Assembly (NCBI RefSeq): GCF_002119525.1
Contig: NZ_CP017916.1
Coordinates: 2,542,001 to 2,606,000, forward strand
DNA: 64,000 nt
Direction of reading: 5' to 3'
From: Vibrio syngnathi
GTDB taxonomy: Bacteria; Pseudomonadota; Gammaproteobacteria; Enterobacterales; Vibrionaceae
Both the position numbers and the translations under genes were made by a program. The notes under the pieces were generated by a model. The model was given only the letters and a program-made list of their open reading frames with translations, searched no databases and had not been told where the DNA came from. Shown in pieces: positions 2,358-35,256 of the stretch (the stretch's first letter is position 1; every line of letters begins with the position of its first letter).

Positions 2358-2651
2358 ATGGCTGTTATCGTCAAGTACGTGGTCGAACGCAACGGAGAAG
2401 AGAAAATGACTTTTACCTCTAAAGCCGAAGCTGACGCATACGACAAAATGCTGGATATGGCTGATGAGCTTTTTGAACTATTAAGCAAAAGCGATTTAGT
2501 TGAAGATGAAGGCAAGCAAGAAGAGCTTGCAATGTACCTAGCGAAGAACAAAGAAGAAGTTCTTTACGCATTAGGTGCTAAGCGTAAACCAGCTCCGAAA
2601 AAAGAAAAGAAGCTTGAAGCTGTTGAAGACGCAGAAGAAGATGCCGCTTAA
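2358..2651 (+). CDS. yebG: YebG-family DNA-damage-inducible protein
   Basis: A small acidic-to-basic protein of 97 residues. The start MAVIVKYVVERNGEEKMTF, the helical middle and the charged lysine/glutamate-rich tail (residues 75-97) match YebG, an SOS-regulated protein of unknown biochemical role. The ATG at 2358 follows a TAGAGG ribosome site. It stands alone, with its own LexA box at 2313 and an intrinsic terminator at 2672. The low-complexity tail is typical of the family. Confidence 0.9.
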   Translation: MAVIVKYVVERNGEEKMTFTSKAEADAYDKMLDMADELFELLSKSDLVEDEGKQEELAMYLAKNKEEVLYALGAKRKPAPKKEKKLEAVEDAEEDAA

Positions 2652-2671
2652 TTAGCTGAAGTTTTCTAAAA

Positions 2672-2717
2672 AACGTCAATAATGTCTCTAATCAGAGTTC
2701 GTTATTGGCGTTTTTTT
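2672..2717 (+). terminator. Intrinsic terminator after yebG
   Basis: Inverted repeat AACGTCAATAA / TTATTGGCGTT (one G-T wobble) with an inner CTCT/AGAG stem, followed by seven T residues. Confidence 0.8.
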
Positions 2718-2774
2718 ATACTTATCGAAATATAATGAACTCTGTTGATAGTCGAAATCGCTCTAAACATTCGC

Positions 2775-2804
2775 TTGCACAAAAGTGTGATAAAGTTCTA
2801 ATCT
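2775..2804 (+). promoter_or_regulatory. Probable sigma-70 promoter of the nifU-like/GGGtGRT operon
   Basis: TTGCAC at 2775-2780 and TAATCT at 2799-2804 with an 18 bp spacer. Transcription would begin a few bases before the aptamer at 2812, which is the position expected if the riboswitch is the very 5' end of the mRNA. The -10 match is modest. Confidence 0.45.
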
Positions 2805-2811
2805 ATAGTCA

Positions 2812-2885
2812 TCAGGTGATGGGGTTCCACCTAAGCTTTTGCTTCAACCGCCCGTTCTTTTGAACAGTGCTAATGACTCCTACAG
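2812..2885 (+). promoter_or_regulatory. Fluoride riboswitch aptamer (crcB motif)
   Basis: The stretch carries the hallmarks of the crcB/fluoride aptamer. P1 is AGGTG (2814-2818) with CACCT (2828-2832). Its loop ATGGGGTTC contains GGGGT, which can form the pseudoknot with ACTCC at 2876-2880. P3 starts at CCGC (2848-2851) and is capped by GTTC-TTTT-GAAC. The conserved 3' block GCTAATGACTCCTAC lies at 2869-2883. An extra small hairpin AAGC-TTTT-GCTT sits between P1 and P3, as joining-region insertions do in some proteobacterial examples. Known examples switch on crcB or other fluoride-resistance genes; here the downstream genes are nifU-like and GGGtGRT. A covariance-model search would settle the class. 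Confidence 0.8.
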
Positions 2886-2889
2886 AATC

Positions 2890-3080
2890 GAAAACAGGTA
2901 ATACTGTTGGATGTATCGCTATTCCTCCATTTTGAAATGGACTTAGTCTATTAAGACCGAGCTCCATGACACCTTTGGATTATCGATACACAAGATCTGT
3001 AGTGAATTAGCCACACCTCTTCCAACACGTCCTGTTTTCTCAACGCCCTAGGTCTTCAATGACCCTAACAGTGAGAAAAC
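2890..3080 (+). promoter_or_regulatory. Structured leader and expression platform with alternative pairings
   Basis: This leader lies between the aptamer and the ATG at 3084. GAAAACAGG (2890-2898) is complementary to CCTGTTTTC (3031-3039). The second strand overlaps GTTTTCTCA (3034-3042), which is a perfect nine-base complement of TGAGAAAAC (3072-3080), the bases just before the start codon. The two pairings exclude each other, as expected for a translation switch. Between them is a closed module: TGTATCG (2912-2918) with CGATACA (2984-2990), containing hairpins TCCATT-TTGA-AATGGA (2926-2941) and GTCT-ATTA-AGAC (2946-2957). The pairings are directly visible; the switching role is inference. 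Confidence 0.65.
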
Positions 3081-3083
3081 ATT

Positions 3084-3776
3084 ATGCACTACTCTTCAGA
3101 AATTCAATCAATGTGCCCTATTCAAAGGGGTGATCTTCACACTTCAGCACCAATTCCAGTTGAAGGCGCTATGGTTAGTCCAAAAGACGTTATCGCTATT
3201 TCTGGCTTAAGCCATGGCGTCGGCACTTGTGCACCACAACAAGGTGCCGCAAAACTAACACTGAACGTAAAAAACGGCATCATCGAAGAGGCGCTAATCG
3301 AAACGATTGGTTGTTCAGGCATGACTCAATCAGCCGCGATGGCAGCCGAAATCCTCACCGGAAGAACCATTCTTGAAGCCCTAAATACTGACTTAGTGTG
3401 TGACGCTATTAACGTAGCAATGCGCGAGATCTTTCTGCAATTTGTTTATGGTCGAACTCAGTCTGCTTTCTCTGAAGGCGGTCTAGAAATTGGCGCCGCA
3501 TTAGAAGACTTAGGTCAAACACAGCGCAGCCAAGTGGGTACCAGTTACTCAACTGCTGCGAAAGGCGTTCGTTACCTAGAGCTTGCCGAAGGTTACGTGA
3601 CCAAGCTTGCACTTGATGACCACAGCGAAGTGATTGGCTACGAGTATCTCAACCTCGGCAAAATGATGAAGGCGATCAATCAAGGCGTGTCAGCCAATGA
3701 AGCTGCTGACCTTGCGACGGGTACTTATGGGCGCTTCGATGAAGCCGTTACCACTATTAACCCACGCCAACAGTAA
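3084..3776 (+). CDS. NifU/IscU-like iron-sulfur scaffold protein
   Basis: A 230-residue protein related to the NifU N-terminal (IscU) scaffold family, on which iron-sulfur clusters are assembled. Candidate ligands are Cys49 (GVGTCAP), Cys77 (ETIGCSGMTQSA) and Cys106, and the segment GCSGMTQSAAMAAEILTGRT resembles the IscU region around its second cysteine. It is longer than IscU (about 128 residues). A GGGtGRT-family gene follows 24 bp downstream, and the same gene pair occurs together in other bacteria. It stands apart from any isc or suf operon and its start is masked by the leader hairpin at 3034-3080. The family assignment is good; the client protein is unknown. Confidence 0.75.
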   Translation: MHYSSEIQSMCPIQRGDLHTSAPIPVEGAMVSPKDVIAISGLSHGVGTCAPQQGAAKLTLNVKNGIIEEALIETIGCSGMTQSAAMAAEILTGRTILEALNTDLVCDAINVAMREIFLQFVYGRTQSAFSEGGLEIGAALEDLGQTQRSQVGTSYSTAAKGVRYLELAEGYVTKLALDDHSEVIGYEYLNLGKMMKAINQGVSANEAADLATGTYGRFDEAVTTINPRQQ

Positions 3777-3800: not shown

Positions 3801-4790
3801 ATGATGAACACTCAATTTAATGAATCAATAACTCGCGTATTGGCAGAAATGAACTTCGACTCTTTGGAGCAAGCGAACCAATACTGTCTATCACACAAAG
3901 TCGACCCAAAAGCGTTAGTGATGGATACCCAACCTATTGCTTTTGAAAGCGCTGCCGATGCTTATATCCTTGGCTCAGCACTGGCGTTATTTCGCAAAGC
4001 CACCAGCGCAGAACAAGCCGCTAATATTATTGGTGAAGGCCTCCAAGCATTTACCAAACCCGGCAGTGTCGCAGAGCAACGCCAAGTAGGTATTGGCCAC
4101 GGTGCACTAGCTGCGCGTCTTCTAAATGAAGAAAGCCACTGCTTTGCCTTCCTTGCAGGCCATGAATCTTTTGCTGCTGCAGAAGGTGCAATTAAAATTG
4201 CACTCAACGTCAACAAATCTCGTCACACCCCATTGAAGGTAATACTAAACGGTCTAGGTAAAGATGCGGCTTATCTTATCTCTCGCATCAACGGTTTCAC
4301 TTACGTGCGCACTCAATACGATTACCAAACAGGTGAACTTGTTGAAACAGAACGTCGCCGCTTCTCACAAGGCCCTCGCGGAGAGATCTTGTGTTACGGC
4401 GCTGATGATGTGCGTGAAGGCGTGGCAATCATGCACAGAGAAGAAGTGGATGTAAGTATTACGGGTAACTCAACTAACCCAACGCGCTTCCAACACCCTG
4501 TTGCAGGTATCTACAAAGCTGAACGTACTCGCCAAGGTTTGCCTTACTTCTCAGTTGCTTCAGGCGGCGGTACAGGTCGAACATTGCACCCAGATAACGT
4601 GGCAGCAGGCCCTGCGTCTTACGGCATGACAGATACTATGGGTAGAATGCACGCTGATGCTCAGTTCGCAGGTAGCTCTTCTGTTCCTGCTCACGTGGCA
4701 ATGATGGGCTTCATCGGTATGGGTAACAATCCAATGGTCGGTGCGACGGTTGCATTGGCTGTAGCAGTAAGCGAATCTCAAAACGCATAA
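3801..4790 (+). CDS. GGGtGRT-family protein
   Basis: A 329-residue cytoplasmic protein named for its signature GGGTGRT at residues 255-261, within SVASGGGTGRTLHPDNVA. The C-terminal third is rich in glycine and methionine (GMTDTMGRMHAD, MMGFIGMGNNPMVG). The family has no established activity that I know of. It is the second gene of the two-gene unit controlled by the fluoride-type leader; the ATG at 3801 follows a strong GAGGAAAG ribosome site. Pairing with a NifU-like scaffold suggests that it binds or uses an iron-sulfur cluster, but that is inference only. Confidence 0.8.
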   Translation: MMNTQFNESITRVLAEMNFDSLEQANQYCLSHKVDPKALVMDTQPIAFESAADAYILGSALALFRKATSAEQAANIIGEGLQAFTKPGSVAEQRQVGIGHGALAARLLNEESHCFAFLAGHESFAAAEGAIKIALNVNKSRHTPLKVILNGLGKDAAYLISRINGFTYVRTQYDYQTGELVETERRRFSQGPRGEILCYGADDVREGVAIMHREEVDVSITGNSTNPTRFQHPVAGIYKAERTRQGLPYFSVASGGGTGRTLHPDNVAAGPASYGMTDTMGRMHADAQFAGSSSVPAHVAMMGFIGMGNNPMVGATVALAVAVSESQNA

Positions 4791-34889: not shown

Positions 34890-35256
34890 GGGGCTGATTT
34901 AGGATTCGACAGGAATTTTGAAGTCTGAGGTGCATGCCGTGGGGCGGTTGGCCACGTTAAAAGCCGCAAAAAAATAGTCGCAAACGACGAAAACTACGCA
35001 CTAGCAGCTTAATAACCTGCTCAGAGCTCTCTTACCCTAGCTTCCGCTCGTAAGACGGGGACCAATAAGAGATCAAACCCAAACTAGCTAGCGCGGATTC
35101 TCCCACCTGAGAGGAAAAGCGCGAATAACAATTCAGGTTAGCCTTTAACTAGCGTGTCGGTTCGCAGGTTGCTGGTGAAATTAAAGATCGACTAAGCATG
35201 TAGTACCAATGATGAATGATTTTTGGACGCGGGTTCAACTCCCGCCAGCTCCACCA
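34890..35256 (+). ncRNA. ssrA: Transfer-messenger RNA (tmRNA)
   Basis: The 5' end GGGGCTGATTTAGGATTCGA and the 3' end GGTTCAACTCCCGCCAGCTCCACCA pair to form the tRNA-Ala-like domain, with encoded CCA. The resume codon is at 34980 and the tag reads ANDENYALAA, followed by two stop codons (35010-35015). The pseudoknot region lies between. It is preceded by smpB. The 3' end, a common integration site in vibrios, is followed directly by its terminator with no integrase. Confidence 0.97.

Follow-up and report, generated by a model that had tools for sequence, protein, structure and literature searches.

A fluoride-class aptamer and three conserved helices as a probable relay to the translation start of a NifU-like/GGGtGRT gene pair in vibrios

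Introduction

Fluoride riboswitches have been studied chiefly through their terminators, and CLC-type channels and enolase are gene kinds expected of the class. Translational purine and TPP riboswitches set a sequestor against an anti-sequestor over the Shine-Dalgarno sequence. In the transcriptional crcB riboswitch of Bacillus cereus, a downstream strand invades the 3' pseudoknot strand of the fluoride aptamer, the invading helix is the terminator, and the invasion is gated by an A40-U48 linchpin (excerpt of PMC11077080). A recent study of covariation in whole fluoride riboswitches took terminating ones as its basis; it names those of Pseudomonas syringae and Burkholderia pseudomallei as translational controls, and in its assays these acted without intrinsic termination (excerpt of PMC13273304). 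Genes of the crcB motif include mutS, transporters of K+ or Cl-, and formate hydrogen lyase (excerpt of PMC2864571), and the portion seen of a fluoride-resistance review leaves NifU and Fe-S unmentioned (PMC11139923). Among the matches listed in our literature search, none joins a fluoride riboswitch with NifU or GGGtGRT; the 2012 fluoride riboswitch paper may already list the pair.

The window analyzed here is a stretch of 64,000 nucleotides from Vibrio syngnathi. We consider it probable that three conserved helices in its leader at 2806-3083 relay fluoride binding to the start codon, fluoride likely turning on translation of a NifU-like protein and a GGGtGRT protein. As in the purine and TPP switches, rival helices would decide access to the start site; unlike in those, an extra helix, which crosses the anti-sequestor, stands between the aptamer and the competition. 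The relay is possibly shared with the P. syringae and B. pseudomallei platforms, which have the same aptamer class and targets that presumably differ from NifU-like/GGGtGRT. The aptamer class and the invasion of its 3' pseudoknot strand by a downstream strand are as in B. cereus (excerpt of PMC11077080), whereas the invading helix here, Pa, comes with no terminator and its effect would be relayed through two further strands, S1 and S2, to the start. Within the known fluoride riboswitch class, the leader combines a conserved relay-type translation platform with an unusual target.

Results and Discussion

The Aptamer and Its Target Genes

The features of the locus, all on the forward strand, are as follows ("cells" are base-pair positions counted over the 106 leaders described below; "free" and "locked" are the two predicted folds).

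2806..2889, +: fluoride (crcB) riboswitch aptamer, RF01734 (48.7 bits; paired letters checked)
2878..2889, +: Pa 5' strand, comprising the last three pseudoknot bases, a U at the presumed place of linchpin U48, and ACAGAAUC (737/742 cells; free fold)
2890..2898, +: S1 (GAAAACAGG), partner of S2 (953/954 cells; 3 double compensatory changes, none in slid controls)
2893..2908, +: Pb, local hairpin AACAG/CUGUU, which keeps S1 in the Pa state (helix of at least 5 bp in 89/106 leaders; free fold)
2905..2911, +: UGUUGGA, which lengthens S1:S2 through UCCAACA at 3021-3027 (whole or in part in at least 58/106 leaders; locked fold)
2912..2990, +: Pc, variable hairpin with closing pairs UGUAUCG/CGAUACA (predicted for the window leader whether free or locked)
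2994..3005, +: Pa 3' strand, GAUCUGUAG-U-GA (complements the invariant aptamer CUAC in 106/106 leaders)
3021..3027, +: UCCAACA, pairing with 2905-2911 (locked fold; letters; relatives' leaders)
3031..3042, +: S2, the strand common to both competing helices, of which CCUGUUUUC pairs with S1 and UGUUUUCUCA with S3 (conservation, covariation, letters)
3072..3081, +: S3, over the ribosome-binding region before ATG 3084 (847/848 cells; 1 double change, 0 when slid)
3084..3776, +: NifU-like protein, 230 aa (PF01592, 22.2 bits, cut-off 22)
3801..4790, +: GGGtGRT protein, 329 aa (PF14057, 559.8 bits, cut-off 27)

A sequence-only reading had placed a fluoride-type aptamer at 2812-2885. The Rfam Fluoride covariance model (RF01734) matches 2806-2889 significantly (48.7 bits, cut-off 34, E 1.8e-10), so that the assignment stood and the extent grew slightly at both ends. 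The match covers the whole model (positions 1-64) and is the only one across the 4.89-Mb genome, whose crcB gene lies at another locus and has no aptamer. P1 (2814-2818/2828-2832) and the pseudoknot (2821-2825/2876-2880) are complementary by letter, with a single G-U within the pseudoknot, and the model alignment, which marks two non-standard pairs, likewise contains the P1, P3 and loop:3'-strand pseudoknot that had been recognized by eye. By model score, the leader aptamer is a member of the fluoride riboswitch class, and it is predicted to bind fluoride. An extra short hairpin (AAGC/GCUU, 2830-2840) lies between P1 and P3 as an insertion relative to the Rfam model. The aptamer is located in a 5' leader, with ATG 3084 lying 195 bases past the model match, and it has the same placement in 98 leaders of the window's genus. 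A scan of the leader for other RNA families gave four further matches, all far under their cut-offs; elsewhere in the window a tmRNA gene is found at 34890-35256 (256.7 bits).

The target, which the earlier reading had left unnamed, is the NifU-like/GGGtGRT pair, an unusual one for a fluoride aptamer. The NifU_N domain of the NifU-like protein scores just at its cut-off and far under the NCBIfam equivalog cut-offs; C49, C77 and C106 are invariant in 30 relatives, and the best PDB relative is NifU 4eb5 (E 2.4e-4). For GGGtGRT, no PDB relative was found by sequence, and the structure model (mean pLDDT 82) has no PDB fold match at E≤0.001, the listed TM-scores being at most about 0.26 (query length). 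We therefore propose no function for GGGtGRT from its fold. The riboswitch target also offers a way into the study of GGGtGRT, whose solved relatives were sought by sequence and by fold and not found. In Bacteroides thetaiotaomicron, the pair is down 11- to 12.8-fold in an iron-deficiency table (excerpt of PMC10434189), and in Clostridium pasteurianum the two proteins appear in a proteome table of iron effects (excerpt of PMC5395762).

Two Competing Helices at the Start Site

We assembled 113 leaders and excluded seven without the usual letters (L074, L109, L112, L113, L115, L148 and L211). The remaining 106, most of them from one genus, comprise 93 of the 98 of the window's genus, which have the S1/S2/S3 letters, four from g219, seven from Aliivibrio and two from Shewanella. 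They represent 102 distinct sequences (L156 and L178 have the same leader and look like one genome taken twice). No leader came from L034 or L124, and no aptamer was found by pattern in L141, L142 or L149. The tree, built from the NifU-like genes, has 105 leaves, the gene of L029 being too short.

The sequence-only reading had described a strand directly after the aptamer as the complement of a downstream strand, which overlaps the complement of a strand next to the start codon. Letters and coordinates agree with this: GAAAACAGG (2890-2898) is the complement of CCTGTTTTC (3031-3039), and GTTTTCTCA (3034-3042) that of TGAGAAAAC (3072-3080), close to ATG 3084. The second helix reaches beyond the limits first given, to TGTTTTCTCA (3033-3042) with TGAGAAAACA (3072-3081). 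Over the 106 leaders, S1:S2 (9 bp) is paired in 953 of 954 cells and S2:S3 (8 bp) in 847 of 848, and neither helix is lost in any leader of this form; the sole mismatch of both is one shared S2 change in L072. When the four repeated sequences are removed, the counts are 917/918 for S1:S2, 815/816 for S2:S3 and 710/714 for Pa. The last S1:S2 position varies among GC, TA, CG and AT. On the tree, both competing helices covary as the reading had proposed to test, with three double compensatory changes in S1:S2 and one in S2:S3, and Pa adds four; all 18 slid controls of the three helices give none, and 46-72% of cells are paired in the slid S1:S2 and S2:S3 controls. The double changes are few because much of the helix core is invariant.

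For 10 dissimilar leaders (less than 80% alike), pairing was compared with that of 400 dinucleotide shuffles. In eight of them the pairing of S1 with the downstream region exceeds that of the shuffles at p≤0.01, and the other two give p values of 0.050 and 0.085. The S3 region alone reaches p≤0.05 in just 2 of the 10, the window included, and is no better than shuffles in the other 8. The support for S2:S3 is evolutionary, namely 847 of 848 cells paired against 46-72% in the slid controls. It is evident from conservation, covariation and folding that alternative helices covering or freeing the ribosome-binding region are present. It is quite improbable that another function, such as a protein or small-RNA site, preserves the GAAAAC repeats of S1 and S3 and that their complementarity to S2 is secondary; the core letters hardly vary, as such a site might have it, but changes at the core edges are matched by partner changes, and leaders before CLC-type genes have overlapping S2 strands in other letters (6 of 10).

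Helix Pa as a Probable Link from the Aptamer to the Switch

A third helix, Pa, is formed by the aptamer's own 3' pseudoknot strand (2878-2889) with a downstream strand (2994-3005). Both helices of the two-helix switch model that had been drawn for this leader are real and conserved, but the model is incomplete, Pa having been missed; the observation behind it is confirmed and its interpretation supported. The seven core pairs of Pa are paired in 737 of 742 cells, and its four double compensatory events fall to none when the strand is slid, with 24-54% of slid cells paired. Against shuffles, Pa reaches p≤0.05 in all 10 dissimilar leaders; the partner strand was chosen as the best duplex, which favors pairing, and the shuffle test was done identically. 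A Pa-type duplex of -11.6 kcal/mol or better is found in 98/98 leaders of the window's genus, and the CUAC match of the Pa strand lies 30 to 72 bases upstream of the S2 end. In L025 the best Pa duplex is not the usual one, and the usual duplex is present too.

In the window, three bases of the five-base pseudoknot strand fall within Pa, as does the U after them, which we take to be at the place of linchpin U48, so that Pa and the closed aptamer would be mutually exclusive. Because the strands of Pa flank S1 and leave S2 outside, Pa and S1:S2 cross. From this crossing order and Pb we infer that Pa and S1:S2 are mutually exclusive as well; since the loops are long, a pseudoknot with both helices is possible.

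No intrinsic terminator was found to overlap the aptamer. An intrinsic-terminator riboswitch as in B. cereus is scarcely credible for this locus: the aptamer strand that Pa targets is also the one attacked by the terminator in B. cereus (excerpt of PMC11077080), yet a scan found no terminator-like site in 2640-3200, and a T-run of at least six downstream of the aptamer is present in just 3 of the 106 leaders. We also observed that the spacer at 3005-3050 is C-rich and G-poor (of its 46 bases, 18 are C and 4 are G) and could be a Rho loading site; the mean spacer composition over the 106 leaders is 0.35 C and 0.10 G. Rho may therefore add to the control. That it does so as a transcriptional layer, in which a loading site between Pa and S2 would become accessible in the closed state and untranslated messages would be shortened, is unlikely. 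Such coupling is known in other riboswitches (by a title cited in the excerpt of PMC13273304), but the proposal has composition as its whole basis, and the layer would supplement a translation switch, not replace it.

Folding and the Direction of the Switch

The aptamer match, the three conserved and covarying helices, and the folding calculations obtained here lead us to propose a relay in which fluoride binding, the direction of the switch and any effect on translation are inferred steps. Without fluoride, the 3' strand of the aptamer would be captured by Pa; S1 would then be held in Pb inside the Pa domain, and S2, being free, would pair with S3 and close the start site. With fluoride, the locked pseudoknot would withhold the aptamer strand from Pa, S1 and UGUUGGA would pair with UCCAACA and S2 as one long helix, and S3 would be freed.

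In the folding calculations, the holo state was mimicked by a constraint that locks the aptamer strand ACUCCU, fluoride, magnesium and cotranscriptional folding being outside the model. With ACUCCU free, the predicted structure of the window leader contains Pa, Pb, Pc and S2:S3, and its start site is 2% open. Locking changes the probability of Pa from 0.88 to 0.02, of S1:S2 from 0.03 to 0.53 and of S2:S3 from 0.96 to 0.54, and the opening of the ribosome site from 0.02 to 0.31; the locked leader shifts toward the long helix of S1 and UGUUGGA with UCCAACA and S2. The ribosome site is opened by more than 0.1 in 65 of the 106 leaders and closed in 3. Among the 10 dissimilar leaders, locking opens the site in five (L001, L011, L043, L057 and L064); in L002 and L040 it is open without locking, in L020 and L059 it barely changes, and in L158 it stays closed. 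Locking of control hexamers moves the site up in 19 and down in 15 of 150 cases, and locking of the real strand up in 10 and down in 2 of 25 leaders.

Taken with Pa and with the rewired genus described below, the predicted folds suggest that fluoride would be the ON signal. An OFF switch, in which fluoride closes the start, seems very doubtful: locking does close the site in L007 and L026, but the leaders that open outnumber those that close by 65 to 3 of 106, and the genus g225 pairs the presumably fluoride-locked strand with its Shine-Dalgarno region.

A Rewired Genus and Diverged Leaders

In all six leaders of g225 (L259, L260, L261, L262, L263 and L266), which come from the order-wide sample, UCCUAUUA at the end of the aptamer pairs with UAAUAGGA just before the start, giving a direct helix of 8 bp between the aptamer and the Shine-Dalgarno region; none of the 106 leaders has a direct helix of this kind of more than 6. 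Pa is weak in these leaders (-4.0 to -5.1 kcal/mol), and locking changes the opening from 0.23 to 0.39-0.63. If fluoride locks the aptamer strand of g225, the gene would open. A simpler switch, in which the aptamer acts directly on the choice between S1:S2 and S2:S3 and Pa is a by-product or spacer helix, would fit the direct adjoining of S1 to the aptamer, and g225 keeps S1:S2 (9/9 pairs) and S2:S3 (8-9/9) although its Pa is weak. We nevertheless regard this simpler arrangement as unlikely, in that Pa covaries independently (four double changes), its 3' strand complements the invariant aptamer CUAC in 106/106 leaders, and g225, having lost Pa, gained the direct aptamer:Shine-Dalgarno helix. 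The relay through Pa is thus preferred.

Among 33 diverged leaders, a clear response to locking is confined to L139 and L140, and the diverged leaders are therefore not counted as members of the relay; Pa-like helices are visible in several of their printed folds. L257 and L264 (Alteromonadales-like or Shewanella-like) keep Pa in the free fold, with locking changing the opening from 0.15 to 0.23 and from 0.23 to 0.24, respectively. Five diverged leaders of the window's genus have other letters, their best candidate helices being of 7-12 and 6-8 pairs, and the best S3 helix of L115 is without S2. L127, which belongs elsewhere in the phylum, has a NifU-like/GGGtGRT pair preceded, as judged by eye, by a sequence resembling the aptamer and a hairpin resembling Pa; no S1, S2 or S3 was seen there.

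Distribution of the Aptamer and the Gene Pair

Among 227 genomes of the window's genus, an aptamer match is present in 121 (114 over the cut-off) and GGGtGRT in 100. Ninety-eight of these 100 have a leader with the aptamer before the NifU-like start, and the remaining two also have an aptamer match, the NifU-like start of L034 being unmatched and L124 being a remnant with a weak aptamer score. By eye, L036, L037, L060, L100 and L111 keep a NifU-type leader while the NifU-like frame is lost or shortened, and in L060 a CLC-type gene comes next after that leader. In a phylum-wide sample, GGGtGRT matches are found in 11 of 398 genomes, 8 of them from the window's genus. Among named genomes, at least 585 loci contain GGGtGRT, and we kept the best 80. 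Each of these best 80 has a NifU-like gene upstream and on the same strand, and 6 of them have an aptamer over the cut-off, in Vibrio fluminensis, Aliivibrio sifiae, two Shewanella, Photobacterium aquae and Motilimonas pumila. In L203, L229 and L254 the sequence ends inside the NifU-like gene, so that these three of the 80 could show no aptamer. With 80 pairs and 6 aptamers, the pair is thus widespread, and the fluoride link was found here in gammaproteobacteria only. With natural variants across about a hundred species, the conserved multi-step translation platform offers a ready system for studying how a ligand signal passes between competing helices and how the wiring evolves.

Other Fluoride Aptamers of Vibrios

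Vibrio aptamer loci without a NifU-like gene precede CLC-type channels (L032, L033 and L060 were tested and gave Voltage_CLC) or enolase (L114). These aptamers are of the same family as that of the window, from which their letters differ. An S2-like strand is present, in other letters, in 6 of 10 CLC-type leaders; its pairings with an early strand and with the start region overlap. Only two of the 10 change by more than 0.1 in the opening of the start site upon locking, one up and one down; for L033 and L052 the start used in this analysis lies one base too late.

We tentatively propose, as a broader reading that is plausible but far from assured, a relay riboswitch in which the aptamer would drive three exclusive helices (Pa, S1:S2 and S2:S3) without touching the start site, which was rewired at least once to a direct aptamer:Shine-Dalgarno lock, and whose like logic may recur in other letters before CLC-type genes; fluoride control of the NifU-like/GGGtGRT pair in marine gammaproteobacteria would then form an iron-sulfur-related branch of the fluoride response.

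As separate observations, strands like GGATAGAT/ATCTATCC with a three-strand logic are seen in the CLC-type leaders L032, L033, L038, L039, L042, L045, L052 and L055, and in L114 the fluoride aptamer lies about 0.5 kb upstream of the enolase gene.
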